From the NCBI GenBank assembly GCA_030452225.1, contig JAKDMP010000005.1:1-34387 (forward strand): DNA of 34,387 nt, in the 5' to 3' direction. The DNA comes from Gammaproteobacteria bacterium. Its GTDB lineage: Bacteria; Pseudomonadota; Gammaproteobacteria; JAKDMP01. The notes beneath the pieces are model-generated. The model saw only the letters and a list, made by a program, of their open reading frames with translations, was not told the origin of the DNA and searched no databases. Positions 445 to 30,874 of the stretch are shown one piece after another. The position numbers and the translations under genes were made by a program. Positions within the stretch are counted from its first letter, which is position 1, and the number at the start of each line of letters is the position of its first letter.

Positions 445-2514
<2,070 letters not shown>

Positions 2515-2523
2515 GAGGGAACA

Positions 2524-3603: not shown

Positions 3604-3624
3604 CCCGAGCTCAGAGGAGTCCGG

Positions 3625-5268: not shown

Positions 5269-6071
5269 GCATCAAGCTGCTGCTCGCCGACGTCGACGGC
5301 ACGCTCGTCAAGACGGACAAGTCGCTGGCGGAGGCGACCGTCGACGCGGTCCACCGGCTCCACGGCGCCGGCATCCACTTCGCGGTCACGAGCGGCCGCC
5401 CCCCGCGCGGGATGGCCATGCTCGTCGAGCCGCTGCAGCTCAAGGCCCCGCTAGCCGCGTTCAACGGCGGGCTGATCGTGGAGCCGGACATGACGCTCGT
5501 CGAGCAGCGGACCATCCCCGACGATCTCGTTGTGCCGATCATCGAGCTGCTCGATGCGTCCGGGCTCGACGCCTGGGTCTACCGAGGGGCCGCCTGGCTC
5601 GTGCGCGATGACCAAGCGCCGCATATCGAGCGCGAGGCCACCACGGTTCGCTTCCAGCCAACGGTCGTGGCGAGCTTCGAGGGCTTCGACAGCGATGTGG
5701 CGAAGATCGTCGGGGTCAGCGACGATTACGACCGGGTCGAGTCCGCGGCCGCGGCCGCTCGGGAGAGATTCGAGGACCACGTCTCGGCCGCGCGCTCGCA
5801 GCCCTATTACCTCGACGTCACCCATCCGCGGGCGAACAAGGGCGACGTCGTCAAGCTCCTATCGGCGAAGTACGGGATCCCGCCGAGCGAGATCGCGACC
5901 ATCGGCGACATGCCGAACGACGTGCTCATGTTCGCCCACTCGGGCCTCTCGATTGCGATGGGGCAAAGCGGCCGTGAGGTTCACCGCGCGGCGCGGTGCG
6001 TGACCACGTCCAACGACGAGGACGGCTTCGCGAACGCCGTCGAGCGTTTCATTCTCAGACAGAGGAGCTAG
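5265..6071 (+). CDS. Cof-type HAD-family hydrolase (likely sugar-phosphate phosphatase)
   Basis: [16 protein letters not shown] (HAD motif I), [23 protein letters not shown] (motif IV); 4-bp ATGA overlap with pgi. Confidence 0.9.
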
Positions 6072-6074
6072 AGC

Positions 6075-7109
6075 GTGCCAACCGACACTCCCATGCAGCT
6101 TGGAATGGTCGGGCTCGGCCGGATGGGCGCGGGCCTCGTGCGCCGGCTCATGCGCGACGGGCATCGCTGCATCGGCTATGACGTGTTCCCGGACGCCGTG
6201 AAGGCGATCGAAGCCGATGGTGCGCTAGGCACGACCTCGCTCGAGGACTTCGCGGCCAAGCTCGACAAACCGCGCACGGCCTGGGTGATGGTGCCGGCCG
6301 GCGAGACCACCGACAAGACGATCACCGCGCTCGCTGAGGTGCTCGAGCCGGGCGACACGATCATCGACGGCGGCAACACTTACTACCACGACGACCTGCG
6401 CCACGCGGCCGCGCTCGGGGAGAAAGGCATACACCACGTCGACGTCGGGACGAGCGGCGGCGTCTGGGGATTCGAGCGCGGGTTCTGTCTGATGATCGGC
6501 GGTGAGAAGGAGGTCGTCGACCGGCTCGGCCCGATCTTTGCCTCGATCGCTCCCGGCCTCGATACGGCGCCACGCACGCCGGGTCGTACGGGCGAGCCGA
6601 CAACGGCGGAGCACGGCTACTACCACTGCGGTCCGAACGGCGCGGGGCACTTCGTGAAGATGGTGCACAATGGCATCGAGTACGGACTCATGGCCGCGTT
6701 CGCCGAGGGTCTGAACATCATCAGGAACGCCGATGCCGGCAAGCGCGCCCGGGAGATGGACGCCGAAACCGCGCCGCTCGAGAACCCGGAGCACTACCAA
6801 TACGACATCGACACGACCGAGGTGGCCGAGGTCTGGCGGCGGGGCAGCGTCATCGGGTCGTGGCTGCTCGACCTGACCGCCGCGGCGCTCTACGCCTCCC
6901 CGCGGCTCGAGGAGTTTGCCGGCCGCGTTTCCGACTCCGGCGAGGGACGCTGGACCTCAATCGCGGCCATCGACGTGGGAGTCCCGGCACCGGTTTTGAC
7001 CGCCGCGCTCTACTCGCGCTTCACCTCCCGTGGACTCGCCAACTTCGCCGACAAGCTCCTCTCGGCGATGCGTAAGGAGTTCGGCGGCCACGACGAGAAG
7101 AAGGCTTAG
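6075..7109 (+). CDS. gnd: 6-phosphogluconate dehydrogenase, decarboxylating (short, YqeC-like form)
   Basis: 344-aa ORF with GTG start; MQLGMVGLGRMGAGLVRRLMRDGH, DGGNTYYHDDLRHA, GHFVKMVHNGIEYGLMAAFAEG. Confidence 0.92.
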   Translation: MPTDTPMQLGMVGLGRMGAGLVRRLMRDGHRCIGYDVFPDAVKAIEADGALGTTSLEDFAAKLDKPRTAWVMVPAGETTDKTITALAEVLEPGDTIIDGGNTYYHDDLRHAAALGEKGIHHVDVGTSGGVWGFERGFCLMIGGEKEVVDRLGPIFASIAPGLDTAPRTPGRTGEPTTAEHGYYHCGPNGAGHFVKMVHNGIEYGLMAAFAEGLNIIRNADAGKRAREMDAETAPLENPEHYQYDIDTTEVAEVWRRGSVIGSWLLDLTAAALYASPRLEEFAGRVSDSGEGRWTSIAAIDVGVPAPVLTAALYSRFTSRGLANFADKLLSAMRKEFGGHDEKKA

Positions 7110-7112
7110 GCA

Positions 7113-7778
7113 ATGGCGCTCGAGATCGAGATCCTCCCCAACGCCGCGGCCGTCGCCGAGCGTGGCGCGCAGATCGTCGCGCAGCGCGCGCGGGCGGCCG
7201 TGGCCGCCCACGGCCGGTTCAACTTCGCCGTCAGCGGCGGGCGAACCCCTTGGGCCATGTTCGCCTGCCTCGCCGGGAAGATGCCTTGGGAGAAGGTAAC
7301 GATCTTCCAGGTTGACGAGCGGATCGCCCCCGACGGCGATCCCGATCGCAACCTCACTCACCTGCGCGCGAGCCTCGCGCCCGCGGGCGCGGTCGAAATC
7401 CGCGCGATGCCGGTCGCAGCACACGAGCTCGACGCCGCGGCGGCCGAGTATGCGGCAACGCTTCCCGACGCGCTCGACCTCGTCCATCTCGGGCTCGGGC
7501 CGGACGGCCACACGGCCTCACTCGTTCCCGGTGACCCGGTGCTCGACGTCGCGGATCGTGACGTCGCGCTAACGCGCCCGTACCAGGGACACCAGCGCAT
7601 GACGCTCACCTTCCCCGCTTTGAACCGCGCCCGCGGCGTCCTCTGGCTCGTCACGGGCAAAGACAAGGTCGAGGCGCTGCGGCGTCTGCGTGCGGGCGAC
7701 AGCTCGATCCCCGGCGGGCGGATATCGAGCGAGCACGCGATCGTCGTGGCGGACGTGGCGGCCGCGGGCTCCAAATGA
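7113..7778 (+). CDS. pgl: 6-phosphogluconolactonase
   Basis: 221-aa ORF; FAVSGGRTPWAMFACLA, VDERIAPDGDPDRNLTHLRA, LVHLGLGPDGHTASLVPGDPVLD. Confidence 0.93.
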   Translation: MALEIEILPNAAAVAERGAQIVAQRARAAVAAHGRFNFAVSGGRTPWAMFACLAGKMPWEKVTIFQVDERIAPDGDPDRNLTHLRASLAPAGAVEIRAMPVAAHELDAAAAEYAATLPDALDLVHLGLGPDGHTASLVPGDPVLDVADRDVALTRPYQGHQRMTLTFPALNRARGVLWLVTGKDKVEALRRLRAGDSSIPGGRISSEHAIVVADVAAAGSK

Positions 7779-8782
7779 CTAGCCGGTTGCGCCAAGCACG
7801 CCCGCCCTATGTCGGCGTGGCCATATTGTCTAGCACACTGCTGCTGCTCAGCGGATGCGCCGAGAGCGGCGTCTATCTGAGCTTTCTCAACCCGCAAGGA
7901 CCCATTGCCGCCGCCCAGCGCTGGCACCTCATCGAGGTGGTGGTGCTGCTCGGGGTGTTCGTGGCGCTACCCATATTTGTGCTCCTGCCGCTGCTGGTGT
8001 GGCGCTATCGCTATGGCGCGAAATCGCCGCGCTACACGCCCAAATGGCAGGATTACCTACCACTGGAAGTCATGGTCTGGGCGGGTCCAATCGCCATCAT
8101 CTGTGTGCTGGGCTTTCTGGTCTGGCACTACACGCACGCGCTGGACCCCTATAAGCCGATCGCACCCCACGGGCGGCCTTTGCAAGTGCAGGCGATCGGC
8201 TACGACTGGAAGTGGCTCTTTATCTACCCGGACCAAGGTATCGCAACCGTTGGCGTGCTGGCGATTCCGGTGGAACAGCCGGTTGCCATGCGTTTGACAT
8301 CGGCCACGGTCATGCAATCCCTGCTGATTCCCGCGCTGGCCGGCCAGATCTACGCCATGGGCGGCATGGTCACGCAGCTCCACCTCAAGGCCACGAAACC
8401 GGGACGCTCGCTCGGTGAGAACACCATGTACAACGGGAACGGATTCCACCACCAGAAGTTCACCGCGCTCGCTATGCCGCCCGAGGAATTTAAAGCGTGG
8501 GTTAGGAAAGTCCGAGCGAGCGGCGTTGCGCTGGATGCCCGCGCCTACAAGGCGCTCTCGCAGCGCGGCACCGTGGCGGAGCTGGTCGCTGCCCTGCCGC
8601 GGGCCTCGCACGAGGGCAACATTTATCTGACGCAGGTGAGCGCTGCCCTGTTTCCCGCGGTCGTCGAGGCGACCATGACCGGTACTCCTACCGCGCTGGG
8701 CCATGTCTTGGTGGCTCCGGCAGGATTGCCGGCGCCTGTAGTCCGCAAGACCGCCGCATCGTCAATGGAAAATGCGCCATGA
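7775..8782 (+). CDS. cyoA: Cytochrome bo3 ubiquinol oxidase subunit II
   Basis: Lipobox-like LLLLSGCAES, IGYDWKWLFIYPDQGIATV, VMQSLLIPALAGQIYAMGGMVTQLHLKA; no CuA ligand motif; overlaps pgl stop by ATGA. Confidence 0.93.
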   Translation: MTSRLRQARPPYVGVAILSSTLLLLSGCAESGVYLSFLNPQGPIAAAQRWHLIEVVVLLGVFVALPIFVLLPLLVWRYRYGAKSPRYTPKWQDYLPLEVMVWAGPIAIICVLGFLVWHYTHALDPYKPIAPHGRPLQVQAIGYDWKWLFIYPDQGIATVGVLAIPVEQPVAMRLTSATVMQSLLIPALAGQIYAMGGMVTQLHLKATKPGRSLGENTMYNGNGFHHQKFTALAMPPEEFKAWVRKVRASGVALDARAYKALSQRGTVAELVAALPRASHEGNIYLTQVSAALFPAVVEATMTGTPTALGHVLVAPAGLPAPVVRKTAASSMENAP

Positions 8783-10890
8783 ATGCCGCCGCCATCATTG
8801 AACAACCGCTGGGGCGCTTGGGGATGGATTCACTGCCGTTCTGGGAGATGCTGCAGCACCCCACGGAGGAGAACCTGATCAACGGCTTCATCGGGGGAGG
8901 CGCGGCATGCGTGGTCGTAATCGGGATCGTGGTTGTCTGCGCGCTGATCACTTTCTTCGGCAAATGGCGCGCACTGTGGTCCGAGTGGCTGACCAGCCCC
9001 GATCACAAGAAGATCGGCATCATGTACGTCGTGGTGGCCTTGGTGATGCTGGCCCGGGCCGTGATCGAAGCGATACTGATGCGGTTGCAGCAGGCGGTCG
9101 GGCTGGGTGGCGGCTTTCTCGCGCCCGATCATTTTGCGCAATTGTTCAGTACTCACGGCACGATCATGATCTTTTTCATGGCCATGCCGTTTCTCATCGG
9201 CGTCATCAATTACGTGATGCCGCTGCAGATCGGTGCGCGCGACGTTTCCTTCCCCGTGCTCAATTCCATAAGCCTGGGATTGACCGCGGCCGCCGCGATG
9301 CTGGTGATGGTTTCACTGGTCATCGGCCAGTTCTCCACCGGTGGCTGGTTCGGCTACCCGCCCTATACCGAGACGGCTTTCACCCCCGATGTCGGACCGG
9401 ATTACTGGATCTGGGCGCTTACGCTGTCGTCGGTGGGGACGACGTTGACCGGCATCAATTTCGCCGTAACCATCTACAAGGAGCGCGCACCGGGCATGAC
9501 GTTGATGCGGATGCCGTTGTTCACATGGACCGCGCTATGCACCAGCATCCTGATGATCTTCGCGATGCCGCCTCTGACCGTCGCCACGGCGCAACTGGCG
9601 CTGGACCGTTACCTGGGCTTTCACTACTTCACCAATGCCCTGGGCGGCAACATGATGAATTTCATGAATCTGTTCTGGCTGTTCGGCCATCCGGAAGTCT
9701 ACATCCTAATACTGCCGTCATTCGGGATCTACTCCGAGGTCGTTGCGACTTTTTCCGGCAAGGCGTTGTTTGGCTACCGCTCGCTGGTGCTGGCTACCAT
9801 GACCATTGCCGTGCTGTCATTCACCGTGTGGGTGCACCACTTTTTCACCATGGGCCAGAGCGCGAACATCAACGCGGTATTCGGCATTGCCTCCATGCTG
9901 ATCGGCATTCCCACGGGAGTGAAGATCTATGAATGGATGGCGACGATGTACCGTGGCCGGGTGCGTCTGACCGTCCCAATGGTGTATGCGATCGGTTTCA
10001 TCCTGCTGTTCGTGCTCGGCGGCATCACCGGGATTATTCTGGCCAACCCCGCGATCGACTATCAGGTGCACAACACGGTGTTTCTGGTGGCGCACTTCCA
10101 CAACGTCGCCATCCCTGGTGTGCTCTTTGGCCTGCTCGCCGGCTACCATTTCTGGTTTCCCAAGGTGTTCGGCTTTCGCCTTGACGAACGCTGGGGGATG
10201 ATCTCGGCGTTGTGCTGGCTGTTTGGATTCATGCTCGCGTTTTTCCCGCTTTATGCCCTCGGCCTGATGGGGCTGCCACGGCGCACCGTCGCCTACTTCA
10301 ATCCTGCTTACCAGCCGCTGGAGATCGTGGCCTTCCTTGGTGCACTGCTAATTGGCTGTGCGCTCCTTGCGCTCCTAATCCAGGGCTGGGTTTCAATCAA
10401 GCATCGCAACGAGAACCGGGTGTTCGCGGGCGATCCCTGGGACGGGCGCAGCCTGGAATGGGCGGTCTCGGCGCCGCCGCCCGAATACAACTTTCCGGTC
10501 TTGCCCGTGGTCAATGATGCGGACGCTTTCGCGGCCGCCAAGGAGTTCGGCGTGGCCTATCAGCAACCCGACGAGTTTGTGGACATCAAGCTCCCCAGGA
10601 ACAGCGCCATGGGCCCGGTGCTTGGCGGCCTCGGTTTCGTCATGGCATTCGGGCTGGTCTGGCATATCTGGTGGCTGGTGATCGTTTGCGCCCTCGGCAC
10701 ACTGGCGGCGATCATCGTGCGCGGATTCGCGCGCGATACGGTGCAAACCGTGCCGGCGAGCGTCGTCAAAGAGGAGCACGGGCGCTGGCTTGATGCTGTC
10801 CAGCATGCCGCCGCGATCTCACGCGCCGCTGAATGCGATCCCGCCAATGAAGGCCTTGCCGAGCAGGGCGCCGCGGGGGCCACGTCATGA
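8779..10890 (+). CDS. cyoB: Cytochrome bo3 ubiquinol oxidase subunit I
   Basis: Heme-copper oxidase subunit I motifs: FGHPEVYILILPSFGIYSE, VWVHHFFTMG, IPTGVKIYEW, VAHFHNVAIPGVLFG, GDPWDGRSLEWAVSAPPPEYNFPVLP. Confidence 0.97.
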   Translation: MNAAAIIEQPLGRLGMDSLPFWEMLQHPTEENLINGFIGGGAACVVVIGIVVVCALITFFGKWRALWSEWLTSPDHKKIGIMYVVVALVMLARAVIEAILMRLQQAVGLGGGFLAPDHFAQLFSTHGTIMIFFMAMPFLIGVINYVMPLQIGARDVSFPVLNSISLGLTAAAAMLVMVSLVIGQFSTGGWFGYPPYTETAFTPDVGPDYWIWALTLSSVGTTLTGINFAVTIYKERAPGMTLMRMPLFTWTALCTSILMIFAMPPLTVATAQLALDRYLGFHYFTNALGGNMMNFMNLFWLFGHPEVYILILPSFGIYSEVVATFSGKALFGYRSLVLATMTIAVLSFTVWVHHFFTMGQSANINAVFGIASMLIGIPTGVKIYEWMATMYRGRVRLTVPMVYAIGFILLFVLGGITGIILANPAIDYQVHNTVFLVAHFHNVAIPGVLFGLLAGYHFWFPKVFGFRLDERWGMISALCWLFGFMLAFFPLYALGLMGLPRRTVAYFNPAYQPLEIVAFLGALLIGCALLALLIQGWVSIKHRNENRVFAGDPWDGRSLEWAVSAPPPEYNFPVLPVVNDADAFAAAKEFGVAYQQPDEFVDIKLPRNSAMGPVLGGLGFVMAFGLVWHIWWLVIVCALGTLAAIIVRGFARDTVQTVPASVVKEEHGRWLDAVQHAAAISRAAECDPANEGLAEQGAAGATS

Positions 10891-11510
10891 GCTACGAAAC
10901 CTTCCGGTATCCCGGGCTGAACCTCGGCCGCGCGCACCCCGAAGCGCACGATGCCGCGGAGACCCTGATGTTTGGTTTCTGGGTCTTCATGATGAGCGAT
11001 GCCATTTTGTTCGGCATGGTGTTCGGGACGTACGTGATACAGTTGGATGCCACCGCCGGTGGACCCGGGCCGCGCGACATCTACGACATCAAAAGCGTCC
11101 TCATCCAAACCATGCTGCTATTGGCTAGCAGCTTTACCTTCGGTATGGCATCGCTGTCGAATAAACACAAGGGCAGCCCGCCGCGCCTGCTTGCCTGGCT
11201 GGTAGTGACCTTGTTGCTGGGCGTGGGTTTCCTGGTTTTCGAAGTTCGCGATTTCCTGTCGATGTTTGACATGGGCGCTGTTCCGAGCCGCAGCGGCTTT
11301 CTCTCCGCGTTTTTCGACCTGGTGCCACTGCATGGCCTGCATGTCACCTGTGCCTGCATTTGGCTGATTTGCCTAGTCGGTCAGATCGCCCGTTACGGCC
11401 TCGACACCGACGTCAAGTTGAGCGTTATGCGACTCGCACTGTTCTGGCACTTTTTGGACATCATCTGGATTGCAATTTTCTCGGTGGTTTATTTGGCGGG
11501 GCTGGCATGA
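10887..11510 (+). CDS. cyoC: Cytochrome o ubiquinol oxidase subunit III
   Basis: Heme-copper oxidase subunit III features (FGFWVFMMSDAILFGMVFGTYV, VPLHGLHVTCACIWLI, ALFWHFLDIIWIAIFSVVYL); ATGA overlap with cyoB. Confidence 0.95.
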   Translation: MSYETFRYPGLNLGRAHPEAHDAAETLMFGFWVFMMSDAILFGMVFGTYVIQLDATAGGPGPRDIYDIKSVLIQTMLLLASSFTFGMASLSNKHKGSPPRLLAWLVVTLLLGVGFLVFEVRDFLSMFDMGAVPSRSGFLSAFFDLVPLHGLHVTCACIWLICLVGQIARYGLDTDVKLSVMRLALFWHFLDIIWIAIFSVVYLAGLA

Positions 11511-13161: not shown

Positions 13162-14547
13162 ATGAGCGTCCCATCCAGCTGCGACATCTTTGTGATCTTC
13201 GGTATCACCGGCGATCTCGCGAAGGTCATGACGTTTCGATCGCTCTACCGCCTCGAACGGCGCAACCTCCTCGACTGCCCGATCGTCGGTGTCGCCGTGG
13301 ACGACTGGAGCGTCGACCAACTCATCCAGCGCGCCCGTGAGTCGATCATCAGCAGCGGGGAGCCGCTCGACGAAGCGGTGCTCGCTCGGCTGGCAAAGCG
13401 ACTCTCATATGTGCCGGGTGATTTCGCGGACGATGCCACCTACGAGCGCGTGGGTGCCGCGATCAAAGGCTTCGCACGGCCCGTCTTCTACCTCGAGATC
13501 CCGCCCGCGCTGTTCGCGATGGTCATCAAGGGCCTCGCTACCGCGGGGCTCACGAAGAGCGCGCACATCGTCGTCGAGAAGCCCTTCGGGCACGACCTCG
13601 CATCGGCACGCGCGCTCGCCGCGGAGCTGCACCAGTACGTCGACGAGTCGCAACTCCTGCGCATCGATCACTTCCTCGGCAAGATGGGCCTGGAGGAAAT
13701 CCTCTACCTGCGATTCGGCAACACCCTGCTCGAGCCGGTCTGGAACCGCAACTATGTCAAGAGCGTCCAGATCACGATGGCCGAGGACTTCGGTGTCGCG
13801 GATCGCGGCCGCTTCTACGACCCCGTCGGCGCGCTGCGCGACGTCGTCGTCAACCACCTCATGCAGGTCGTGGCGGCCGCCGCGATGGAGGCGCCCGCCG
13901 GAGCCGAGGCTGAGACCATCAAGGACTCGCAACTCGCCGTGTTCCGCTCCGTGCTCACGGCTGATCCCGCCCACTACGTCCGCGGCCAGTACGAGGGCTA
14001 CCGCACGATCGACGGCGTCGCACCCGATTCCAGCACCGAGACCTTCGCCGCCCTGCGTCTCGACATCGAGAACTGGCGCTGGTCCGGTGTGCCCTTCTAC
14101 ATCCGCACCGGGAAGTGCCTGCCGGTCACCCAGACTGAGCTCCGGCTCGTGTTGAAGAGCCCGCCTCGCCTTGGCCTCGGGCTCCGAGGCCCCGCTTCCG
14201 AGCCCGACGAGCTCGTGATCAGGCTGGATCCGGCGACCGGCATCCGCTTCCGACTCGAGGCCCGACTGGCGAAGAGCCGTGAGGCGCGGCCTATCACGCT
14301 CGACATGACGTTCGCCGAGGAAGGCGGCGAGGGGGCCACGCCCTATGAGGTCTTGCTGCACGCGGCCATGGTCGGTGAGACCACGCGCTTCACCCGCCAA
14401 GATGGCGTCGAAGAGGCATGGAGGATCATGCAGCCCCTCCTCGACTCACCACCCACGGTCCATCCCTACCCCCAGGGCTCGTGGGGCCCGAAGGAAGCGA
14501 GTGAGTTGGTGGCGGGGTATGGCCGCTGGCACGATCCGTGGCTCTAA
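13162..14547 (+). CDS. zwf: Glucose-6-phosphate 1-dehydrogenase
   Basis: 461-aa [75 protein letters not shown]. Confidence 0.95.
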
Positions 14548-19442: not shown

Positions 19443-21248
19443 TCATTGCTCAGCGTGATGCTGCGCCGGACCATTGCCCTCCTCCAGGCTCAGATGGTGC
19501 GCGGTGTTGATGAGCCCGACGTGCGAGAATGCCTGCGGAAAATTGCCCAGCAGGCGCTTTTCCCGCGGGTCATATTCTTCTGCCAGAAGACCAACGTCGT
19601 TGCGGATCGCAAGCAGACGATGGAACAGCTCCCGTGCTTCGTCTTTGCGCCCCATGAGCGCCAGATTATCGGCGAGCCAGAACGAGCAGAGAATGAACGC
19701 GCCCTCGCCACCGGCCAGCCCATCGTCGCCTTCCTCCAGCGAATAGCGCATGACGAAGCCGTCGTTCATTAGGTTTTTCTGAATGGCCTCGACGGTGCTT
19801 TTGATGCGCGGATCCTCGGCCGGCAGAAACCCCACCAGCGGCATCAACAGTAAGGCCGCATCGAGTGGCTCGCCGCCGTAGTACTGCACGAACGTATTGC
19901 GCTTCTTGCTAAACCCCTTTTCGCAGACCTCGTCATGGACGGTCTTGCGCAGCGCGCGCCAGTGCGCGGCGTCGCCTTCAAGGCCGAAGTTCTCGATGGC
20001 CTTGACCGCGCGGTCGAACGCCGTCCACGCCATCACCTTGCCATGAGTGAAATCGCGCGGCGGACCGCGCATCTCCCAGATCCCTGAGCCTTCGTCTGGC
20101 CAGTGGACTTCGAGATACTTCAGCAGCTCGAGCTGCAAGAGCCAAGTATCGTCGTCCGGCTGAATGCCGTGCCGCCTCGCGGTGTACAGAGCGTCGATGA
20201 CCTCGCCGTAAATGTCGATCTGGACCTGAGTGTAGGCGCCGTTGCCTATGCGCACCGGGCGGCTGCCCTCATAGCCGCTCAGCCAGTCGAGCTCGAGCTC
20301 GGGCAGCCGGCGCTCGCCGCCGATGCCATACATGATCTGCACTCTTCTCGGATCGCCGGCCACCGCGCGTAGCAGCCATTCACGCCACCGGCGGGCTTTC
20401 TCGTGGTAGCCCGATAGCAATAAGGCCTGCAGGGTAAAGGCCGCATCGCGCAGCCAGGTGTAGCGATAGTCCCAATTGCGGGTGCCGCCGATCAGCTCCG
20501 GCAGCGAGGTGGTCGGCGCGGCCACTATGCCGCCGGTCTCGCTGTCGGTCAGCGCTTTCAGCGTGATCAGCGAGCGCACCACCGGCTCGCGGTACTCGCC
20601 CTGCGTCTTGCAGTGCGCGCTCCAATCGCGCCACCAGCGCTGCGCCTGCTCGAGCGCCGCGCCGGCGTCAAGCACCGCGGGCGCATCGTGCCAGGACAGG
20701 TACCAGTCCAGCACGCAGGGCACGCGCTCACCGGCCGAAATGGTGAACTCGGCCACTGTGGTCTTGTCGCGGCCGTGCAGCTCCAGCGGTGTGTGCAGTT
20801 GTAGCGCATCCGGGCCAGCGATCGCCTGCAGCCCAAAATCCTGGTGGCGCACCCATGGTGCGACTCTGCCGTAGCCGAAGCGGAAGATTATCTCCATTTG
20901 CATAGCCACGCGCCCTTGCCGGCCCTCGACGATGCGCACTACGTCAATGACGTCATTGCCGTCGCGCGGCAGCGGCATGAAATCGATCAGTGCTACCGTG
21001 CCGGAATCCGTCTCGAATAAGGTTTCCAGGATCAAGGTTTCGTCGCGGTAGCGGCGCGTGATCTTCTTGGTTGCTTCTTTAGGCGCAATCAGCCAGCGGC
21101 CATTGTCACGCTCGCCGATCAGTGCGGCGAAACAGGCGTCGGAGTCGAAGCGCGGCAGACACAACCAGTCGATCGAGCCGTCGCGGCCGACCAGCGCGGC
21201 GCTGCGCATGTTGCCGATCAGCGCGTAGTCTTCAATACGTTGGCTCAT
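19443..21248 (-). CDS. Glycoside hydrolase family 15 protein (glucoamylase/trehalase-like)
   Basis: MSQRIEDYALIGNMRSAALVGRDGSIDWLCLPRFDSDACFAALIG N-terminus, GGTRNWDYRYTWLRDAAFTLQALL, AWTAFDRAVK, NFPQAFSHVGLINTAHHL; internal Met start chosen. Confidence 0.93.
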   Translation of the reverse strand: MSQRIEDYALIGNMRSAALVGRDGSIDWLCLPRFDSDACFAALIGERDNGRWLIAPKEATKKITRRYRDETLILETLFETDSGTVALIDFMPLPRDGNDVIDVVRIVEGRQGRVAMQMEIIFRFGYGRVAPWVRHQDFGLQAIAGPDALQLHTPLELHGRDKTTVAEFTISAGERVPCVLDWYLSWHDAPAVLDAGAALEQAQRWWRDWSAHCKTQGEYREPVVRSLITLKALTDSETGGIVAAPTTSLPELIGGTRNWDYRYTWLRDAAFTLQALLLSGYHEKARRWREWLLRAVAGDPRRVQIMYGIGGERRLPELELDWLSGYEGSRPVRIGNGAYTQVQIDIYGEVIDALYTARRHGIQPDDDTWLLQLELLKYLEVHWPDEGSGIWEMRGPPRDFTHGKVMAWTAFDRAVKAIENFGLEGDAAHWRALRKTVHDEVCEKGFSKKRNTFVQYYGGEPLDAALLLMPLVGFLPAEDPRIKSTVEAIQKNLMNDGFVMRYSLEEGDDGLAGGEGAFILCSFWLADNLALMGRKDEARELFHRLLAIRNDVGLLAEEYDPREKRLLGNFPQAFSHVGLINTAHHLSLEEGNGPAQHHAEQ

Positions 21249-21529
21249 TGGTCTTGTCCTTTGTACTTGCGGGACGCGTCGGGCGAAGCGAGGTATCACC
21301 TTTGCGCCGGATGTTGCCAGTCTTCATCCGCGCAAGGTCATTTTCAAGCATTGCGTTAGCTGAGCAATGCAGAGAGTCGGCGGCGCCACGGTCGCAGCCC
21401 AATGAGGGCTGGAACTCCAGGTGGCGGGCACGGTCTAGATTATTCAACCGGCGACCGGGGTTGTCGTAGCGAATGCTGTGACCTTCCCAGAACGGGGAGT
21501 TTACCCAATCGAGCGGCGCTCGGCGGCGA

Positions 21530-22618
21530 ATGTCAACAGGAGATGTTGTGATAAAGGAAACGGCGTCCATAGCCAACGTCTTCGGAGAGACACCCGACGG
21601 GCGCGCCGCGGCCTTGTACGTGCTCCAGAACAAGCACTTGCGCACGCAGATTACAGATTACGGTGGCCGCATCGTCTCGCTGGAGGTCCCGCACCGAGGT
21701 GGTGCGCGTAGGCACGTCGCGTTGGGCTTCGATCGGGTCGCGGATTACGTCAGAGCCGGAAAACCGTTTGGTGCGTTGCTTGGGCGCACTTCGAACCGCA
21801 TCGCCGGCGGGCGTTTCTTGCTGGATGGGCGCAGCTACGATCTCGTGCAGAACGAAGGCGACAATACGCTGCATGGCGGCGGGGTCTTCGGCAACGTGTT
21901 CTGGCTCGTATCCGAAGCAAGCGCCACGCAGCTCGTTCTCACACATGTCAGCCCCGACGGCGATCAGGGCTTTCCTGGCGAGCTCACGGTGCGCGCGGCC
22001 TACCGGCTTGACGGCACGACACTGTGGCTGGAGCTCGAGGCACAAACGAGCAAGCCTACAGTCGTCAGTCTGAGCGCGCATCCCTATTTCAATCTTGGCG
22101 GCCTGCAAGCCGGGAGTGTGCTCGATCATGAGCTCACCATCGCCGCCGAGACTTACCTGCCGACCGATGCCGCACAGATTCCCACGGGCGAGCGCCGTTC
22201 GGTCGCTGGAACGCCGTTCGATTTCCGCAAGCCGATGCCCGCCGCCGCGCGCATCCGTGATCCGGATCCGCAGCTTCTCTATGGCAAGGGCTATGACCAT
22301 TATTTCATTATCGATGCAGCCAAGGGAGGCACGCCAAGTTTCGCCGCACGCGCCAGAGACCCCGCAACCGGATGCACCCTGGATGTTTACACGACACAGC
22401 CCGGTCTGCAGTTCTACACTGGAAACAATCTCGATGCGACCATTGCCGGCCGTGGTGGCATTTACCGTCAATCCGCCGGTTTCGCGTTCGAGCCGCAAGG
22501 TTTTCCCAACGCGCCGAACCAAAAGGAATTCCCAAGCACGATCTTGCGGCCCGGCGAAACCTATCGACACAGCATCGGTTATGCTTTCAGCCTCACCGAG
22601 CCGGAGCCCGGAAGCTAA
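21530..22618 (+). CDS. galM: Aldose 1-epimerase
   Basis: GALLGRTSNRIAGGRFLLDGRSYDLVQNEGDNTLHGG, LSAHPYFNLGG, GLQFYTGNNLD; a GTG at 21548 is an alternative start. Confidence 0.92.
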   Translation: MSTGDVVIKETASIANVFGETPDGRAAALYVLQNKHLRTQITDYGGRIVSLEVPHRGGARRHVALGFDRVADYVRAGKPFGALLGRTSNRIAGGRFLLDGRSYDLVQNEGDNTLHGGGVFGNVFWLVSEASATQLVLTHVSPDGDQGFPGELTVRAAYRLDGTTLWLELEAQTSKPTVVSLSAHPYFNLGGLQAGSVLDHELTIAAETYLPTDAAQIPTGERRSVAGTPFDFRKPMPAAARIRDPDPQLLYGKGYDHYFIIDAAKGGTPSFAARARDPATGCTLDVYTTQPGLQFYTGNNLDATIAGRGGIYRQSAGFAFEPQGFPNAPNQKEFPSTILRPGETYRHSIGYAFSLTEPEPGS

Positions 22619-22620
22619 CC

Positions 22621-24267
22621 TCAAAGGCTGCCTTGCGCCGCCATCGCCCGAATTCGATCCGCGGTGCGGCAGGCGATTGCCTGAATAGTGAGCGACGGGT
22701 TGACCCCGCCGACGGTCGGGAACACCGAGCCGTCACAGACCCACAAATTGGGGATATCCCAACTGCGGCAATCGGCATTGACGACGCTGGTGCGTGGATC
22801 GTCGCCCATGCGCGCGGTGCCGTTCAGATGACAGGTGTCGTCACTTTCGGTCCATATGTCGCGCGCACCGACTACCGAGAGGCTTTGCGACATGAAATTC
22901 AGCGCGTGCTTAACCAGTGCCTTATCGTTGTCGCACAGCGAGTAAGTCACCCGCGCGATCGGCAAGCCGTATCGATCCTTCTCGTCGGCCAGTGCTACGC
23001 GGTTGCGTTCCTGCGGCAACACTTCGCCGACGATCTTCAGACCCGCCTGGTGGTTGTACTTTTCCATTGCGCGCAGCAGCGCATCGCCCCACAGCCCGCG
23101 ATTACCCGCGAGGGAGGAAACCCAAGCCCGCGGCAGCGGCCCCTGACTCATGTACGCGTAGCCGCCGAAGAAATCCTTGCCGGTGTCCGTATAGTTCCAG
23201 TGCTCGGTCACGGCCAGCGACGGCGGCCCTTTGTACCAACGAATCTCGTCTTCCATCACACCCCAGGCCGCCTGGTTGGTTTGCGCCATCAGATTTTTGC
23301 CCACCAGACCGGAGCTATTCGCGAGCCCGTCCGGAAACTGCGAATTGGCCGAGCTCAATAATAGCCGCGGCGTTTCGATCGCATAGCCTGCGACGACGAC
23401 GTTACGGGCGCGCTGGAAGCGCCATTGGCCTTCGCGATAGTAGTGCACCCCCGTGACGTAACCGGCGTCGTTGGTTTCGATCCGGCCTGCCATTGCCAGA
23501 TCCCGGATTTCGGCGCCGGCCTTCACCGCGCGTGGAATCCAGGTAATCAGCGCGCTCTGCTTGGCGTTGGTCGAGCATCCACTTACGCAGAAGCCGCGAT
23601 AGACGCAAGGAGGCGAGCGCCCGCGCGGGGCGGAGACCGTGGCGAGCGGCGTCTCCGACCAGGGAATGCCCATTGCTTCACAGCCTTTGGCGAGCACCAG
23701 AGCGGCGGCATTAAGCTCATGCGCGCGGTAGGGGTAGCGCGGCCGCGGTGGCCCCCACGGATAATTCACCGGCCCTGCGATCTTTAGCGCCTGTTCGACT
23801 TCGGTGTAATAGCGCCACATCTCGCGCCAATCGAGCGGCCAATCAGCGCCGTAACCAAGGAGGCTGCGCGACTTGAGCCACTCAGGGCGAAAGCGCAGCG
23901 ACACCATCGCGAAATGCACGGTCGAGCCGCCTATGGCCTTGCCACTGTTGTTGCTGCCGAGCTTGAGCGGATTGTCCCCGTCGCAGATGCGCTCGTCGGT
24001 CCAGAAAAGTTTTTCCTGGTGTGTTTCATCCGAAGCGAATTCCTCGAGCGGGCGCCACCAGGCGCCGGCGTCGAAGCCGACGACCGAGAAGCCCGCCTCC
24101 GCCAGCTTGCAGGCCAGCGTCCCGCCGCCGGCGCCCGTGCCGACGATGGCGAAATCGACTTCGTCATTCTCGCCATATTGGCGCATCGGCATCCAGCCGC
24201 CGACGCGCAGGGGGTCAGGCGCGCGCCCATCCTTGCCGCGTGGGCTGTGCAGCGCCTCATCCAACAC
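22621..24267 (-). CDS. GMC-family oxidoreductase (gluconate 2-dehydrogenase / FAD-glucose dehydrogenase large-subunit type)
   Basis: FAIVGTGAGGGTLACKLAEAGFSVVGFDAG, GKAIGGSTVHFAMVSLRF, CVYRGFCVSGCSTNAKQS, LWVCDGSVFPTVGGVNPSLTIQAIACRTADRI. Confidence 0.93.
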   Translation of the reverse strand: MLDEALHSPRGKDGRAPDPLRVGGWMPMRQYGENDEVDFAIVGTGAGGGTLACKLAEAGFSVVGFDAGAWWRPLEEFASDETHQEKLFWTDERICDGDNPLKLGSNNSGKAIGGSTVHFAMVSLRFRPEWLKSRSLLGYGADWPLDWREMWRYYTEVEQALKIAGPVNYPWGPPRPRYPYRAHELNAAALVLAKGCEAMGIPWSETPLATVSAPRGRSPPCVYRGFCVSGCSTNAKQSALITWIPRAVKAGAEIRDLAMAGRIETNDAGYVTGVHYYREGQWRFQRARNVVVAGYAIETPRLLLSSANSQFPDGLANSSGLVGKNLMAQTNQAAWGVMEDEIRWYKGPPSLAVTEHWNYTDTGKDFFGGYAYMSQGPLPRAWVSSLAGNRGLWGDALLRAMEKYNHQAGLKIVGEVLPQERNRVALADEKDRYGLPIARVTYSLCDNDKALVKHALNFMSQSLSVVGARDIWTESDDTCHLNGTARMGDDPRTSVVNADCRSWDIPNLWVCDGSVFPTVGGVNPSLTIQAIACRTADRIRAMAAQGSL

Positions 24268-24898
24268 GTTCGTTGGCCTTGCGTGCCGCAGCCTCGTGGC
24301 CGGGCTTCGCTTCCACCGCTTCCCAGGAATCGCGCCGATTGAAATTCATGCGCACGTAGCCGCGCGGACTCGCCGGGCCGCCGAAACCGATCTCGTTCCA
24401 CGAGCTCGAGTGGGAATAGTAGGCAGCGAGGATGTCATGGGCGAGGCGCTCGCTGAAGAAGGTGTGAGCCGGCATACCATTCCACTCCGGTCCACTCAGT
24501 TCGCCGTTTTGCATGGCTTTCAGCAGCACGTCTTGCTTGACCGCGGCGATGGCGTGGAAAGGCGCGCCATGGCTGGCGCGGGCCGCGGCATCCAGGGCGG
24601 CGAGCCCGCGCTGCCACGCTTGCTGCATCTTCGGCATGCTGGCCTGGCGGTAGCCGTCGCGCTCGTCATTCGTCATCTTGCGGTCGACCAGCGCCGCGAT
24701 CGGAACTGGGGCACGGTCTTTGGGCTGCGGCACGATGCGATCGCAGATTGCGGTCAACGTCTCCCATTCCTGCATAGTGAAAAAACGCGGCTCGTTCGGA
24801 ATCGACAATCGTGCATCGATCACTCGGCGGGTAGGTTCGTTCCACGACGGCGTGGCGCGCTTTGCGAGGACGTCGTAGCCGGGATAGCGCTCAGGCAT
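24257..24898 (-). CDS. Gluconate 2-dehydrogenase subunit 3 family protein
   Basis: FFTMQEWETLTAICDRIVPQP and position directly upstream of the GMC gene with 11-bp overlap; start MPERYPGYDV chosen. Confidence 0.8.
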   Translation of the reverse strand: MPERYPGYDVLAKRATPSWNEPTRRVIDARLSIPNEPRFFTMQEWETLTAICDRIVPQPKDRAPVPIAALVDRKMTNDERDGYRQASMPKMQQAWQRGLAALDAAARASHGAPFHAIAAVKQDVLLKAMQNGELSGPEWNGMPAHTFFSERLAHDILAAYYSHSSSWNEIGFGGPASPRGYVRMNFNRRDSWEAVEAKPGHEAAARKANERVG

Positions 24899-25907
24899 CG
24901 GGGTGTTCCTCCAACAACCCGAGCGCGGCGAGTCCAGCGAGCGCAAGGCCGGTAAAGCTCGGCGGCGCGGGGATCGGCGGCCCGTTGAGCACGTTCTGGC
25001 TCCAGTTGCGCCAACCGCCCATGTTGCGCTGGACGCCATAGGCATGGAAGCCGGCGCCCGCGAAGCCGAGGAGCGCCGTGAGGCGCAGCCACCAGCGGGT
25101 GAGGCGGCGCGGCCGGCGCGGGCGACTCAGCGCGGTTTCACCCAGCAGCGCGCCGGCCAGCGGCGGTACAGTTACTGGCGCGAACATGAAGGGGTTGTGA
25201 TAGGCGCCGCGAAAGTGCAGCAATCCCGCCTCGCCAGCCGTCGCGAGTAGGCCGACGCCGCTCAGTGCCGCGAGCGCGCGGCCGGCGGGCAGCCCAAAGA
25301 CCTTTGGTATCTTGTCGGATTCATTGTCGCGCAAGCGCTCCGAATAATAGCCGAGCAATCCGGATAACGCGACAGCCCCCGGCGCACCGAGCGGCGAGCC
25401 ATAGAACAGGTTCTGCCATGAGAAGCCGCCCGGACGCTTGGCGATGTTATAGATATGAAAGCCGGTGCCGGCGATACCCGTCAGCGCCGCCGCCAGGTAG
25501 GTTGCGTCGCGGACTCCATGCGCGATGGGGCGTTTGTCGCGGGTGCCGTGCGCACTCACCGCCAACATCAACGCCGAGACGATCAACGGCGTGTACATAG
25601 CCTTGTTCTGGAACGAGCCGCGGTAATGCTCAACCGCGCTGTCCAATAATGTGGACGTCCCGAGTAAGCCCGCGGCGCGATTTAAACGCCGCGCGGCCTT
25701 GACCTGCGGCGGCTCATCGACCCGCAAGGGGCTGCGCTTCTGACGCGCATGCGTTCTCGCGCCGGCGAGCGTCTCCCGGCCGGTTTGCGGTGTAAAACCC
25801 CGTCGAAGCAACGCAACTCCAAGGCCAAGCGCGATGGCACCAACGGCGCCACCCACTAGTTGACGGGTCGCCGCCGTAGATAGATCCCCAGCGTTGTTCG
25901 CTGCCAT
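24891..25907 (-). CDS. Integral membrane protein with internal tandem duplication, function unknown
   Basis: 338-aa hydrophobic ORF; 8-bp overlap with the downstream subunit-3 gene; two halves align (HYRGSFQN...GTGFHIY versus HFRGAYHN...GAGFHAY). Confidence 0.85.
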   Translation of the reverse strand: MAANNAGDLSTAATRQLVGGAVGAIALGLGVALLRRGFTPQTGRETLAGARTHARQKRSPLRVDEPPQVKAARRLNRAAGLLGTSTLLDSAVEHYRGSFQNKAMYTPLIVSALMLAVSAHGTRDKRPIAHGVRDATYLAAALTGIAGTGFHIYNIAKRPGGFSWQNLFYGSPLGAPGAVALSGLLGYYSERLRDNESDKIPKVFGLPAGRALAALSGVGLLATAGEAGLLHFRGAYHNPFMFAPVTVPPLAGALLGETALSRPRRPRRLTRWWLRLTALLGFAGAGFHAYGVQRNMGGWRNWSQNVLNGPPIPAPPSFTGLALAGLAALGLLEEHPDA

Positions 25908-26376: not shown

Positions 26377-28170
26377 ATGGGTGAATTGGTCAGCGATTTC
26401 CTGCTTAAGCGGTTATCCGAATGGGGCGTCAAGCGCATCTTCGGCTTTCCCGGGGATGGCATCAACGGCATTCTTGGTGCGCTCGGCCGCGCCGGCGACC
26501 GCTTCGACTTCGTGCAGGTACGCCATGAGGAAATGGCCGGGTTCATGGCCTGTGCCCATGCCAAGTTTACCGGCGAGGTGGGCGTTTGCCTGGTGACCTC
26601 CGGTCCCGGCGCGATCCATGTGCTGAACGGTCTCTACGACGCCAAAAAAGACCACCAGCCGGTGCTCGCAATCATCGGGCAGCAAGCCCAGAGCGCGCTC
26701 GGTGGCGATTATCAGCAGGAGGTCGATCTGACCACGCTGTTCAAGGACGTCGCGCACGAATACGTGCATATGGCGACCAGCCCGGCGCAGGTGCGCCATC
26801 TCATCGATCGCGCGCTGCGTATTGCCAAGGACCAGCGTACCGTCACGGCTCTGGTGTTTCCGAGCAACCTGCAGGAAATGCCGGCGGTGGAGGCGCCGCC
26901 GCGCGCACACGGCACCGTTCACTCCGGTGTCGGCTATACGCCGCCGCGTATCGTGCCGGAAGAGGATGATCTCAGGCGCGCCGCGCTGGTGCTGAACGAG
27001 GGCAAGAAGGTGGCGATGCTGGTCGGCGCCGGCGCCCTGAACGCAACCGACGAGGTGATCGAGACGGCCGAGCTGCTGGGTGCCGGAGTCGCTAAGGCGC
27101 TGCTCGGCCGCGCCGCGGTGCCGGATGACCTGCCTTATGTGACCGGCTCCATCGGCCTGCTCGGCACCAATCCGAGCTGGGAGCTAATGACCGGCTGCGA
27201 CACGTTGCTGATGGTTGGCTCGGCGTTCCCATATTCCGAATTTTTGCCCAAGGAAGGCCAGGCCCGCGGCGTGCAGATCGATATCGACGGGCGCATGGTC
27301 AGCATGCGCTACCCGATGGAAGTGAACTTGGTCGGCGACAGTGCCAAGACGCTGCGCGCGCTGATCCCGCACTTAAACCGTAAGACCGACCTTTCTTGGC
27401 AGGACCACATCAAGGAGGAAGTCGCGCACTGGTGGAAGATACTTGAAGCGCGCGCGATGACGAGCGCCAACCCGATCAACCCACAGCGCGTGTTCTGGGA
27501 GCTCTCGTCGCGGCTGCCGGACAACTGCATCCTGACCTGCGACGCCGGCTCGGCAGCCAACTGGTACGCGCGCGACCTCAAGCTGCGCCGCGGCATGATG
27601 GCCTCGCTCTCCGGCGGACTGGCCACGATGGGGCCGGGCGTGCCGTATGCGATCGCGGCCAAGTTTGCGTATCCTGATCGTGCCGTTATCGCGATGGTCG
27701 GCGACGGCGCGATGCAAATGAACGGCATCAACGAGCTGATTACGATTGCGAACTATTGGAAGCGCTGGAGCGATCCGCGCCTGGTCATCCTGGTGCTCAA
27801 TAACCGCGACCTGAACCAGGTGACCTGGGAGCAGCGGGTGATGGCCGGCGATCCAAAATACGAAGCCTCCCAGAACGTTCCCGATTTTCCGTATGCGAGC
27901 TACGCCGAGCTGATCGGCCTGCGCGGCATCAAGGTCGAGGAGCCGGACGCAGTCGGCGGCGCGTGGGACCGTGCGCTCAGCGCCGACCGCCCGGTGGTGC
28001 TGGAAGCCGTTACCGACCCGGACGTGCCGCCAATGCCGCCGCATATCAAGCTGGAGCAGGCGAAGGCGTACATGTCCGCCCTGCTGCACGGCGATCCCGA
28101 CGCGATGGGCATCATCAAAGCCTCGGCTAAGGACTTCCTCAAGACCTTCGTGCCGACCGTAAAAGGCTGA
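26377..28170 (+). CDS. Thiamine-pyrophosphate-requiring enzyme (pyruvate dehydrogenase/oxidase PoxB-like)
   Basis: FGFPGDGINGILGAL, RHEEMAGFMACAHAKFTGEVGVCLVTSGPGAIHVLNGLYDAKKDH, TPP motif VGDGAMQMNGINELITIANYWKRWSDPRLVILVLNN. Confidence 0.93.
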   Translation: MGELVSDFLLKRLSEWGVKRIFGFPGDGINGILGALGRAGDRFDFVQVRHEEMAGFMACAHAKFTGEVGVCLVTSGPGAIHVLNGLYDAKKDHQPVLAIIGQQAQSALGGDYQQEVDLTTLFKDVAHEYVHMATSPAQVRHLIDRALRIAKDQRTVTALVFPSNLQEMPAVEAPPRAHGTVHSGVGYTPPRIVPEEDDLRRAALVLNEGKKVAMLVGAGALNATDEVIETAELLGAGVAKALLGRAAVPDDLPYVTGSIGLLGTNPSWELMTGCDTLLMVGSAFPYSEFLPKEGQARGVQIDIDGRMVSMRYPMEVNLVGDSAKTLRALIPHLNRKTDLSWQDHIKEEVAHWWKILEARAMTSANPINPQRVFWELSSRLPDNCILTCDAGSAANWYARDLKLRRGMMASLSGGLATMGPGVPYAIAAKFAYPDRAVIAMVGDGAMQMNGINELITIANYWKRWSDPRLVILVLNNRDLNQVTWEQRVMAGDPKYEASQNVPDFPYASYAELIGLRGIKVEEPDAVGGAWDRALSADRPVVLEAVTDPDVPPMPPHIKLEQAKAYMSALLHGDPDAMGIIKASAKDFLKTFVPTVKG

Positions 28171-28173
28171 GCC

Positions 28174-29292
28174 GTGGCCGAGCGCACGGCGAGTCCTGGG
28201 AGGGCGGCAGCACCCATCGAGACGATCGAAGTCTCCGCCTACGAGATTCCGACCGATGCGCCAGAGTCGGACGGCACCTTGGAATGGGATTCGACCACCA
28301 TGGTGCTGGTCGAGGTAAGCGCCGGCGGCAAAACCGGGGTCGGTTACACGTATGGTCATCAGGCGATCGCGACACTGATTCGCGACAAGCTCTCTGGTGT
28401 CATCAGCGGTCGTGATGCGATGGATGTCGGCGACTGCTGGCTGACGCTGGTCAAATCGATCCGCAATCTCGGCCGCCCCGGTATCTGTTCGATGGCGATC
28501 GCCGCGCTCGACATCGCGCTCTGGGATTTGAAGGCGCGCTTGCTCGATCGACCGCTGGTGGGGCTGCTGGGTGCATTTCAGGCGATGGTGCCGGTGTATG
28601 GCAGCGGCGGCTTCACCTCGTATTCCGAGGCGCAGCTGCGCAATCAGCTAGCCGGCTGGGTCGATGCCGGTATCCCGCGTGTCAAGATGAAGATCGGTCG
28701 CGAGCCGGAGCGCGACCCAGCCCGAATGAAATCTGCGCGCGCCGCGATCGGCTCGGCCACCGAGCTCTACGTCGACGCGAACGGCGCCTATGACCGCAAA
28801 CAGGCGCTCGCGATGGCCGGGGTCTTCCTCGAGCACGGCGTTACTTGGTACGAGGAGCCGGTAACCTCCGATGATCTCGCCGGCCTGCGTTTGCTGCGCG
28901 ATCGGGCGCCCGCGATCACTGAGATCGCGGCCGGCGAATACGGCTATGACCTGCCTTATTTCCGCGCCATGCTCGAAGCCGGCGCAGTCGATGTGCTGCA
29001 GGCCGACATCACCCGTTGCGCCGGCCTGACCGGCTTTCTTGCCGTCGCCGCGCTTGCCGAGGCGCATGAGGTGCCGTTATCCGCGCACTGCGCGCCCGCC
29101 CTGCACCTGCACCCGTGCTGCGCAATCAAGCCGCTGCGCCATCTGGAATATTTCTACGATCACGTGCGCATCGAGCGCATGTTGTTCGATGGCACGCAGG
29201 AGCCGGATGGTGGAGCGCTGCGCCCGGATTTGTCGCAGCCCGGCTTGGGACTCGAATTCAAACGTGTGGACGCGCAGGCGTATCGGTTGTGA
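28174..29292 (+). CDS. Enolase-superfamily (mandelate racemase/muconate lactonizing-like) protein, probable sugar-acid dehydratase
   Basis: GTG start 3 nt after TPP gene; KMKIG (KxK), VDANGAY, WYEEPV, AAGEYGY, VLQADITRC, SAHCAPALH match the metal-ligand/catalytic layout of the superfamily. Confidence 0.88.
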   Translation: MAERTASPGRAAAPIETIEVSAYEIPTDAPESDGTLEWDSTTMVLVEVSAGGKTGVGYTYGHQAIATLIRDKLSGVISGRDAMDVGDCWLTLVKSIRNLGRPGICSMAIAALDIALWDLKARLLDRPLVGLLGAFQAMVPVYGSGGFTSYSEAQLRNQLAGWVDAGIPRVKMKIGREPERDPARMKSARAAIGSATELYVDANGAYDRKQALAMAGVFLEHGVTWYEEPVTSDDLAGLRLLRDRAPAITEIAAGEYGYDLPYFRAMLEAGAVDVLQADITRCAGLTGFLAVAALAEAHEVPLSAHCAPALHLHPCCAIKPLRHLEYFYDHVRIERMLFDGTQEPDGGALRPDLSQPGLGLEFKRVDAQAYRL

Positions 29293-29498: not shown

Positions 29499-29838
29499 GT
29501 GCGCTGTGTTGGTGTTGGCAAATGCCGCGGCGAAGGCGTCACGATGTGTCCGAGCTACATGGTCACGCGCGAGGAGAAACACGCGGGCGCGCGCGGCTGC
29601 TGTTCGAGATGATGCAAGACGACGTGCTGACCGACGGCTGGCGTTCCGAGGCGGTTTAGGTATCGCTCGATTTGTGCCTCTCCTGCAAGGGTTGCAAGAG
29701 CGACTGTCCGGTCAATGTCAATATGGCGGCCTACAAGGCGGAATTCCTGTCGCATTACTACAAAGGCTGGCTTGAAGCCGATCTCGGCTTGCGCGTTCGG
29801 CCTGATCGAGCGCTGATCGCGGCTCGCCTTGCCTGCGG
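29499..29838 (+). pseudogene. Fragment of FAD-/Fe-S-binding oxidoreductase (D-lactate/glycolate dehydrogenase-like), multiply disrupted
   Basis: RCVGVGKCRGEGVTMCPSYMVTREEKH (frame 1), then GRARLLFEMMQDDVLTDGWRSEAV*VSLDLCLSCKGCKSDCPVNVNMAAYKAEFLSHYY (frame 2, in-frame TAG), then KPISACAFGLIER*SRLALPA (frame 3): at least two frameshifts and two stops. Confidence 0.8.
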
Positions 29839-29851
29839 TGGAGTAAATGGC

Positions 29852-30874
29852 ATGGACGTATACGAAAAGTCCGAAGTCGTCGTCATCACCGGCGCAAGCG
29901 CCGGCGTTGGCCGCGCGACGGCACGTGCGTTTGCCAAGCACGGTGCGCACATCGGCCTGATTGCACGCGATACCGCTCGGCTGGAAGCGGCGCGCGGTGA
30001 AGTCGAAGCTCTGGGCGGCAAGGCGCTCGCCGTCAGTGTCGACGTGGCCGACGCAGCCGCGCTCGAACGCGCGGCTGAGACGATCGAGAGCAACCTCGGG
30101 GAGATCGACATCTGGATCAATGCCGCGATGACAACCATTGTCGCACCGCTCGCCGAGATCGAGCCAGGCGAATTCAAGCGCGTCTCAGAAGTCACCTATC
30201 TCGGCAACGTTTACGGCACAATGGCCGCGCTGAAGCGCATGCTGCCGCGCAACCGCGGCACGATCGTTCAGGTGAGCTCCGCACTCGCCTACCATTCAGT
30301 GCCGTTACAGGCGCCGTACTGCGGCGCCAAGCACGCGATCAACGGCTACACCGACTCGCTGCGCGCCGAGCTGCTGCACCGCGGCAGTCATGTCCACGTC
30401 ACCGCCGTCGATTTGCCGGGGCTCAATACGCCGCAGTTCGACTGGGCCCTTAACAAGATGCCGCAGCGCCTGCGTCCAGTCGCGCCCGTCTACCAGCCCG
30501 AGGTTGCCGCGCGCGCGATCGTCTGGGCCGCGCATCACCGCCGGGCGCGGCTGTACGTCGGGCTGTCGGCGTTGTTGATGATTTGGGCCGATAAGTTTGC
30601 ACCGGGGCTGCTCGATCGCTATATGGCCCGCAGCGCCGTTAGTGGCCAGCAAACGGCTGAGCCCGCCAATCCCGACCAGCCGAACAACCTTTGGCAGCCG
30701 GGTTCCGGCGATCATGGCGCGCGCGGCCGCTTCAGCGCTGGAGCCTACGAGCACAGCGTCCAGCTCTGGGCGACCACGCACCGCGGTTGGCTTGCGCTTG
30801 CCGGTGCCGCGCTCGCCGCTGGTGCCATCTGCGCGAGCGCCGCCCGGCGGCGGCGAAGACATGGACTACCGTAA
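29852..30874 (+). CDS. SDR-family oxidoreductase
   Basis: VVVITGASAGVGRATARAFAKHG (TGxxxGxG), VQVSSALAYHSVPLQAPYCGAKHA (S...YxxxK); start at MDVYEKSEVV, since the longer ORF only reads into the upstream pseudogene. Confidence 0.9.
   Translation: MDVYEKSEVVVITGASAGVGRATARAFAKHGAHIGLIARDTARLEAARGEVEALGGKALAVSVDVADAAALERAAETIESNLGEIDIWINAAMTTIVAPLAEIEPGEFKRVSEVTYLGNVYGTMAALKRMLPRNRGTIVQVSSALAYHSVPLQAPYCGAKHAINGYTDSLRAELLHRGSHVHVTAVDLPGLNTPQFDWALNKMPQRLRPVAPVYQPEVAARAIVWAAHHRRARLYVGLSALLMIWADKFAPGLLDRYMARSAVSGQQTAEPANPDQPNNLWQPGSGDHGARGRFSAGAYEHSVQLWATTHRGWLALAGAALAAGAICASAARRRRRHGLP

Follow-up and report, generated by a model that had tools for sequence, protein, structure and literature searches.

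A duplicated four-helix histidine protein as the probable membrane partner of a 3Fe-4S GMC flavoenzyme in a cassette without cytochrome c

The membrane protein P0001, encoded in a 34,387-nucleotide stretch of a gammaproteobacterial genome (the window, meaning the whole stretch analysed), is with a probability of roughly 0.6 the membrane subunit of a cytoplasm-facing sugar (aldose or glycoside):quinone dehydrogenase that receives its electrons from a 3Fe-4S cluster. It probably plugs a sugar-oxidising flavoenzyme into the respiratory membrane, replacing the usual cytochrome c. In the proposed mechanism the GMC subunit would oxidise the sugar with FAD, electrons would pass from FAD to the 3Fe-4S cluster of the same subunit, the eight-helix protein would dock the pair of GMC and small subunit (g3) to the membrane, and ubiquinone would be reduced either directly at a site of His, acidic and Arg residues or via heme b held between His pairs. 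The membrane docking, the electron transfer via the membrane protein, quinone as the acceptor and sugar as the substrate are what we infer here.

The gene of P0001 (24891..25907, minus strand) starts with ATG and encodes 338 residues in a tandem arrangement of 4+4 helices, with no Cys and therefore no heme c. An earlier note on this DNA, made from the sequence, had described the protein as a tandem duplication with identically spaced His residues and had proposed a self-alignment of profiles and a structure prediction as checks. The duplication is real: profile-profile alignment of residues 70-200 with residues 205-335 gave a probability of 99.0 and an E-value of 4.6e-18 over 124 columns, far above column-shuffled controls (n=30), which reached a probability of 6.3% at most. 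When offsets from 40 to 199 were compared, most identities were found at 137 (38/201, the runner-up giving 33/235), and this offset is exact for both H94/H231 and H151/H288, the sequence motifs quoted in the note also being present. The AlphaFold model, built on a 71-sequence alignment, is confident (mean pLDDT 85, pTM 0.82) and has four membrane-length helices in each half, predicted at residues 67-96, 102-123, 128-157 and 174-194 and at residues 208-231, 239-260, 268-295 and 315-334. Repeat unit 1 (residues 67-194; 25326..25709, minus strand) contains D89, E93, H94, R96, M104 and H151, and repeat unit 2 (residues 205-334; 24906..25295, minus strand) contains E226, H231, R233, M241 and H288. 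In the model the two His of each unit lie on one side, close to ends of helices 1 and 3. Ahead of the repeats, a further hydrophobic helix at the N-terminus (residues 6-37) varies among relatives, several of which, from sphingomonads, apparently start at about residue 70.

When one genome per species was scanned with six seed peptides, just one of which includes any of the four His, 74 relatives of the membrane protein were found. His94 (codon 25626..25628), His151 (25455..25457), His231 (25215..25217) and His288 (25044..25046, all on the minus strand) are invariant among 73-76 aligned sequences and in the 71-sequence alignment, where D89, E93, R96, M104, E226 and M241 are likewise invariant and the C-terminal block RNMGGWRNW-Q mostly so. 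In each unit the residue five positions ahead of the first His is acidic and invariant, and a conserved Arg or Lys stands two positions after that His. A seed-independent profile search of 399 Pseudomonadota genomes added four relatives, and the His and the other invariant residues are kept in 4/4; the conservation of the four His claimed in the earlier note was thus borne out, with no relative lacking them among about 74 and these four. The family is rare, being found in 4/399 genomes in addition to the genome of the window, which has two copies, and its His are kept across four phyla, Pseudomonadota, Acidobacteriota, Deinococcota and Actinomycetota, the diversity beyond Pseudomonadota coming from a few plasmid records. 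The second cassette of this genome (G000:C44:3025-4026, locus L076) encodes a membrane protein 71% identical to P0001, and a separate g3 and GMC go with it. In two other genomes, G094 and G302, weak profile hits (E about 0.01) that are not close to the g3 genes of these genomes were taken as chance, and a match in Embleya was left out, sitting in a rearranged or decayed stretch.

No family match for the membrane protein was found in Pfam, NCBIfam or PHROGs, where known-family assignments were rejected as sub-threshold noise (for example Acyl_transf_3, E 0.054). The sole match in a sequence search of the PDB was a gamma-glutamyltransferase at E 0.82, and a PDB fold search with the model had no match as good as E 0.001, the best value being 0.21. 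A clear match to a known unrelated family, which the earlier note had named as a finding against it, did not appear in Pfam, NCBIfam, PHROGs or the PDB. Plasmid records label members of the family 'hypothetical protein', 'putative membrane protein' and, once, 'sodium/proton-translocating pyrophosphatase', and no description of the cassette or of the membrane family was found in the open-access literature, outside which most subscription journals fall.

The membrane gene heads a near-fixed trio in the order membrane protein, g3 (a gluconate-2-dehydrogenase-3-like small subunit) and GMC flavoenzyme. The GMC and/or small-subunit gene follows the membrane gene in 75/76 loci, including the two of the genome of the window, with partial trios explained by contig ends, and the four extra relatives from the 399-genome sample have the complete trio in 4/4. 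The lone exception is L004, where a restriction-modification-type ORF comes immediately behind the membrane gene, at the g3 position. In the window, g3 (24257..24898, minus strand) matches PF13618, Gluconate_2-dh3, at E 1.8e-25 (Pfam), has its likely start at 24898 (ATG) and shows no Tat signal. Its start overlaps the membrane-gene stop by 8 nt, as the note had said of the two genes, and the overlap has the identical length in 46/54 relatives. The distance matrices of membrane protein and g3 correlate with r 0.81, which could arise from inherited linkage alone. A cytochrome c subunit is absent from the trio, and no other family occupies the cytochrome position. The suggestion in the note that the membrane protein replaces this subunit is supported both by the lack of a rival family at that position and by the lack of Cys in the protein.

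The GMC flavoenzyme of the window (22621..24267, minus strand; PF00732/PF05199 in Pfam) has the large subunits of FAD-glucose dehydrogenase and fructose dehydrogenase as its nearest solved relatives, with a match to PDB 6a2u at E 2.9e-50. Its Cys221, Cys227 and Cys231 (stretch 23575..23607, minus strand) align with Cys212, Cys218 and Cys222 of the FAD-glucose dehydrogenase (FAD-GDH) of B. cepacia, which in the structure of that enzyme ligate the 3Fe-4S cluster passing electrons towards a membrane-bound heme c subunit (PMC6719666). Equivalents of the three Cys are invariant in 71-72 GMC sequences, and the ligand Cys are also present in the Deinococcus and Frondihabitans GMCs. Within the trio the membrane protein is the sole conserved candidate for electron exit. 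The small subunit of the B. cepacia enzyme is a Tat hitchhiker (PMC6719666). By a strict pattern (RR followed by a hydrophobic stretch) a Tat signal was found in 0/75 cassette g3 versus 24/30 comparison g3, the latter being the best 30 PF13618 matches and no random sample, and in the remaining 6/30 an RR and a hydrophobic stretch were visible by eye. No signal peptide was seen at the N-termini of the cassette GMCs. Because both g3 without a Tat signal and GMC without a signal peptide point the same way, the dehydrogenase of the cassette is, judged from sequence, most likely cytoplasmic. The cassette shares with B. cepacia FAD-GDH, Gluconobacter fructose dehydrogenase and gluconate 2-dehydrogenase a PF13618 small subunit and a GMC in which the 3Fe-4S Cys have the same spacing, but its small subunit lacks the Tat signal for hitchhiker export and its third subunit is a Cys-free eight-helix His protein where theirs is a multi-heme cytochrome c with CxxCH motifs. 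Since both the Tat signal on g3 and the multi-heme cytochrome c are absent, the cassette is a variant of the design of GMC, 3Fe-4S cluster and small subunit that stands outside the cytochrome-c-linked family.

How the four His would act was considered in three ways. The first, possible though rather unlikely as a complete account, is that each unit binds one heme b (H94-H151 and H231-H288), so that the protein would be a di-heme cytochrome by which electrons move on from the 3Fe-4S cluster to quinone, as in complex II or other b-type anchors. Complex II anchors have membrane His close to a 3Fe-4S donor, and the likeness of the cassette to them would be one of functional analogy. The modelled placing of the His pair of each unit, on the same side and close to ends of helices 1 and 3, would be consistent with such a site, as is the invariance of the His in four phyla and in single-unit forms, and a conserved Arg nearby could neutralise heme propionates. 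Against this, the membrane protein matched no known b-type cytochrome, complex II anchors included, by sequence or by fold (Pfam, PDB sequence and PDB fold searches), and invariant acidic residues adjoin the His, which is atypical of heme b sites. As far as sequence tells, a site for quinone or protons would fit the acidic and Arg or Lys residues around the His no worse than heme. The second explanation, likewise doubtful when taken by itself, is a cofactor-free quinone module like NrfD/PsrC, in which two four-helix bundles bind quinone near an iron-sulfur cluster. The modelled 4+4 helices, in two repeats beside an iron-sulfur partner, have the same layout as those of NrfD, PsrC and ActC. In NrfD-like proteins the quinone sites involve His, Asn, Tyr and Asp (PMC8076601), with which the conserved Asp or Glu, His, Arg and Asn of each unit may be compared. 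The membrane protein had, however, no NrfD match in Pfam or NCBIfam, and no NrfD-like chain (PsrC, ActC) was among the 50 fold matches listed. The NrfD-like site is moreover single and in the first bundle, whereas here the His motif is kept in both units and unduplicated forms exist in the family. Between direct quinone reduction and a heme b relay, the data fit both about equally.

The third explanation, improbable, and more so than either of the others, is that the membrane protein is not redox-active but a plain anchor, a substrate channel or a metal-binding accessory, the GMC electrons going to another acceptor. It draws on topology in particular. Mean counts of Lys and Arg in the membrane family are 17.4 on the non-His side versus 7.8 on the His side, so that the positive-inside rule predicts a periplasmic His face, away from the presumed enzyme. 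This prediction, the chief obstacle to the proposed role, argues against its simplest version, because a periplasmic His face would stand opposite a cytoplasmic dehydrogenase handing over electrons. The charge-count signal is blurred by the His-side Arg and Lys, which are conserved and probably functional, and either the rule is misleading, or the His serve a more distant site, or the complex has another architecture. The set of one acidic residue and two His per unit would also suit a metal, and a VKOR-like membrane protein in Deinococcus cassettes is a possible alternative redox partner. Against an inactive protein stand the constancy of a trio that has a 3Fe-4S exit cluster and no cytochrome c, and the membrane protein as its sole conserved partner.

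In the surroundings of the trio, a GalM-like aldose 1-epimerase lies at 21530..22618 on the plus strand (a minus-strand ORF at 21533-22624 was rejected as spurious, the plus strand there coding for the epimerase), and an aldose epimerase is also found beside the Frondihabitans cassette. Among 42 loci with full flanks, a thiamine-pyrophosphate (TPP) enzyme (NF006129; here 26377..28170, plus strand) occurs near the trio in 37/42, an enolase-superfamily (MR/MLE) sugar-acid dehydratase-like enzyme (28174..29292, plus strand) in 28/42, an SDR oxidoreductase (29672..30874, plus strand) in 19/42 and a GH15 trehalase/glucoamylase-like enzyme (19443..21299, minus strand) in 13/42. All four, and the aldose epimerase, are present in the window, where the TPP-MLE-SDR block runs divergently from the trio. 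The domain of the SDR ORF begins at residue 66, and its start is uncertain; its first ~60 residues include a Cys-rich LCLSCKGCKSDCPVNVN, like the end of an iron-sulfur oxidase, and may reflect a misplaced start codon or a remnant of an upstream gene. In Granulicella the MR/MLE enzyme and the membrane gene flank a cyclase-family protein (L086:5114-5857).

Positions 445-11510 of the window encode a transketolase, a transaldolase, a phosphoglucose isomerase, a HAD hydrolase, a 6-phosphogluconate dehydrogenase-like enzyme and a 6-phosphogluconolactonase, and also a CyoABC-type bo3 ubiquinol oxidase about 11 kb from the trio; G6PDH follows this pentose-phosphate and respiration block at 13162-14547. 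The cytochrome b of bc1 (PF00032, PF00033) was not found in the 97%-complete genome G000 to which the window belongs. The bo3 oxidase and this absence favour quinone as the acceptor as support, not as proof, because the genome also encodes COX2 with CuA ligands (on contig C189) and a few cytochrome c domains.

The earlier note had counted homologs without the duplication as evidence against its reading, and such relatives exist. A single-unit form of 154-157 aa stands at the position of the membrane gene on plasmids from Deinococcus sp. D7000 and AJ005 and from Frondihabitans (Actinomycetota), with profile matches to the two halves of the duplicated form at E 5.2e-19 and 3.7e-17. Since these proteins keep both His, the acidic residue and the same neighbours, they look, from their sequences, like the unduplicated form and no refutation. 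In Deinococcus D7000, g3 and GMC are fused into one protein with the Cys motif intact. Duplicated forms are found in Granulicella (Acidobacteriota) and in Deinococcus peraridilitoris. Reading the Deinococcus ORFs as a split gene was rejected, one being a single repeat unit (157 aa) and the other an unrelated VKOR-like protein. Carrying a CGLC/CGWC motif, this small membrane protein lies directly upstream of the single-unit gene in two Deinococcus plasmids (L085:5511-5909 and L087:5484-5873). In the simplest history a single unit would have worked as a homodimer before it was duplicated, a direction that is our inference.

Known three-subunit GMC dehydrogenases use a periplasmic electron route via heme c and are employed in glucose and fructose biosensors. 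Somewhat short of an even chance, in our estimate, is the wider proposal that the duplicated four-helix His-pair unit, whose single-unit form survives in Deinococcus and Actinomycetota, constitutes a new respiratory module that remodels the periplasmic, cytochrome-c-linked GMC design as a cytoplasmic oxidoreductase between sugar and quinone, either via heme b or directly. If true, this would be a second wiring by which one and the same 3Fe-4S flavoenzyme feeds the respiratory chain, made without an export signal and widespread in reach, from Pseudomonadota and Acidobacteriota to Deinococcota and Actinomycetota. A family labelled hypothetical in public records would thereby also gain a name and a role open to testing, and its single-unit and duplicated forms offer a natural experiment in the building of repeat membrane proteins.
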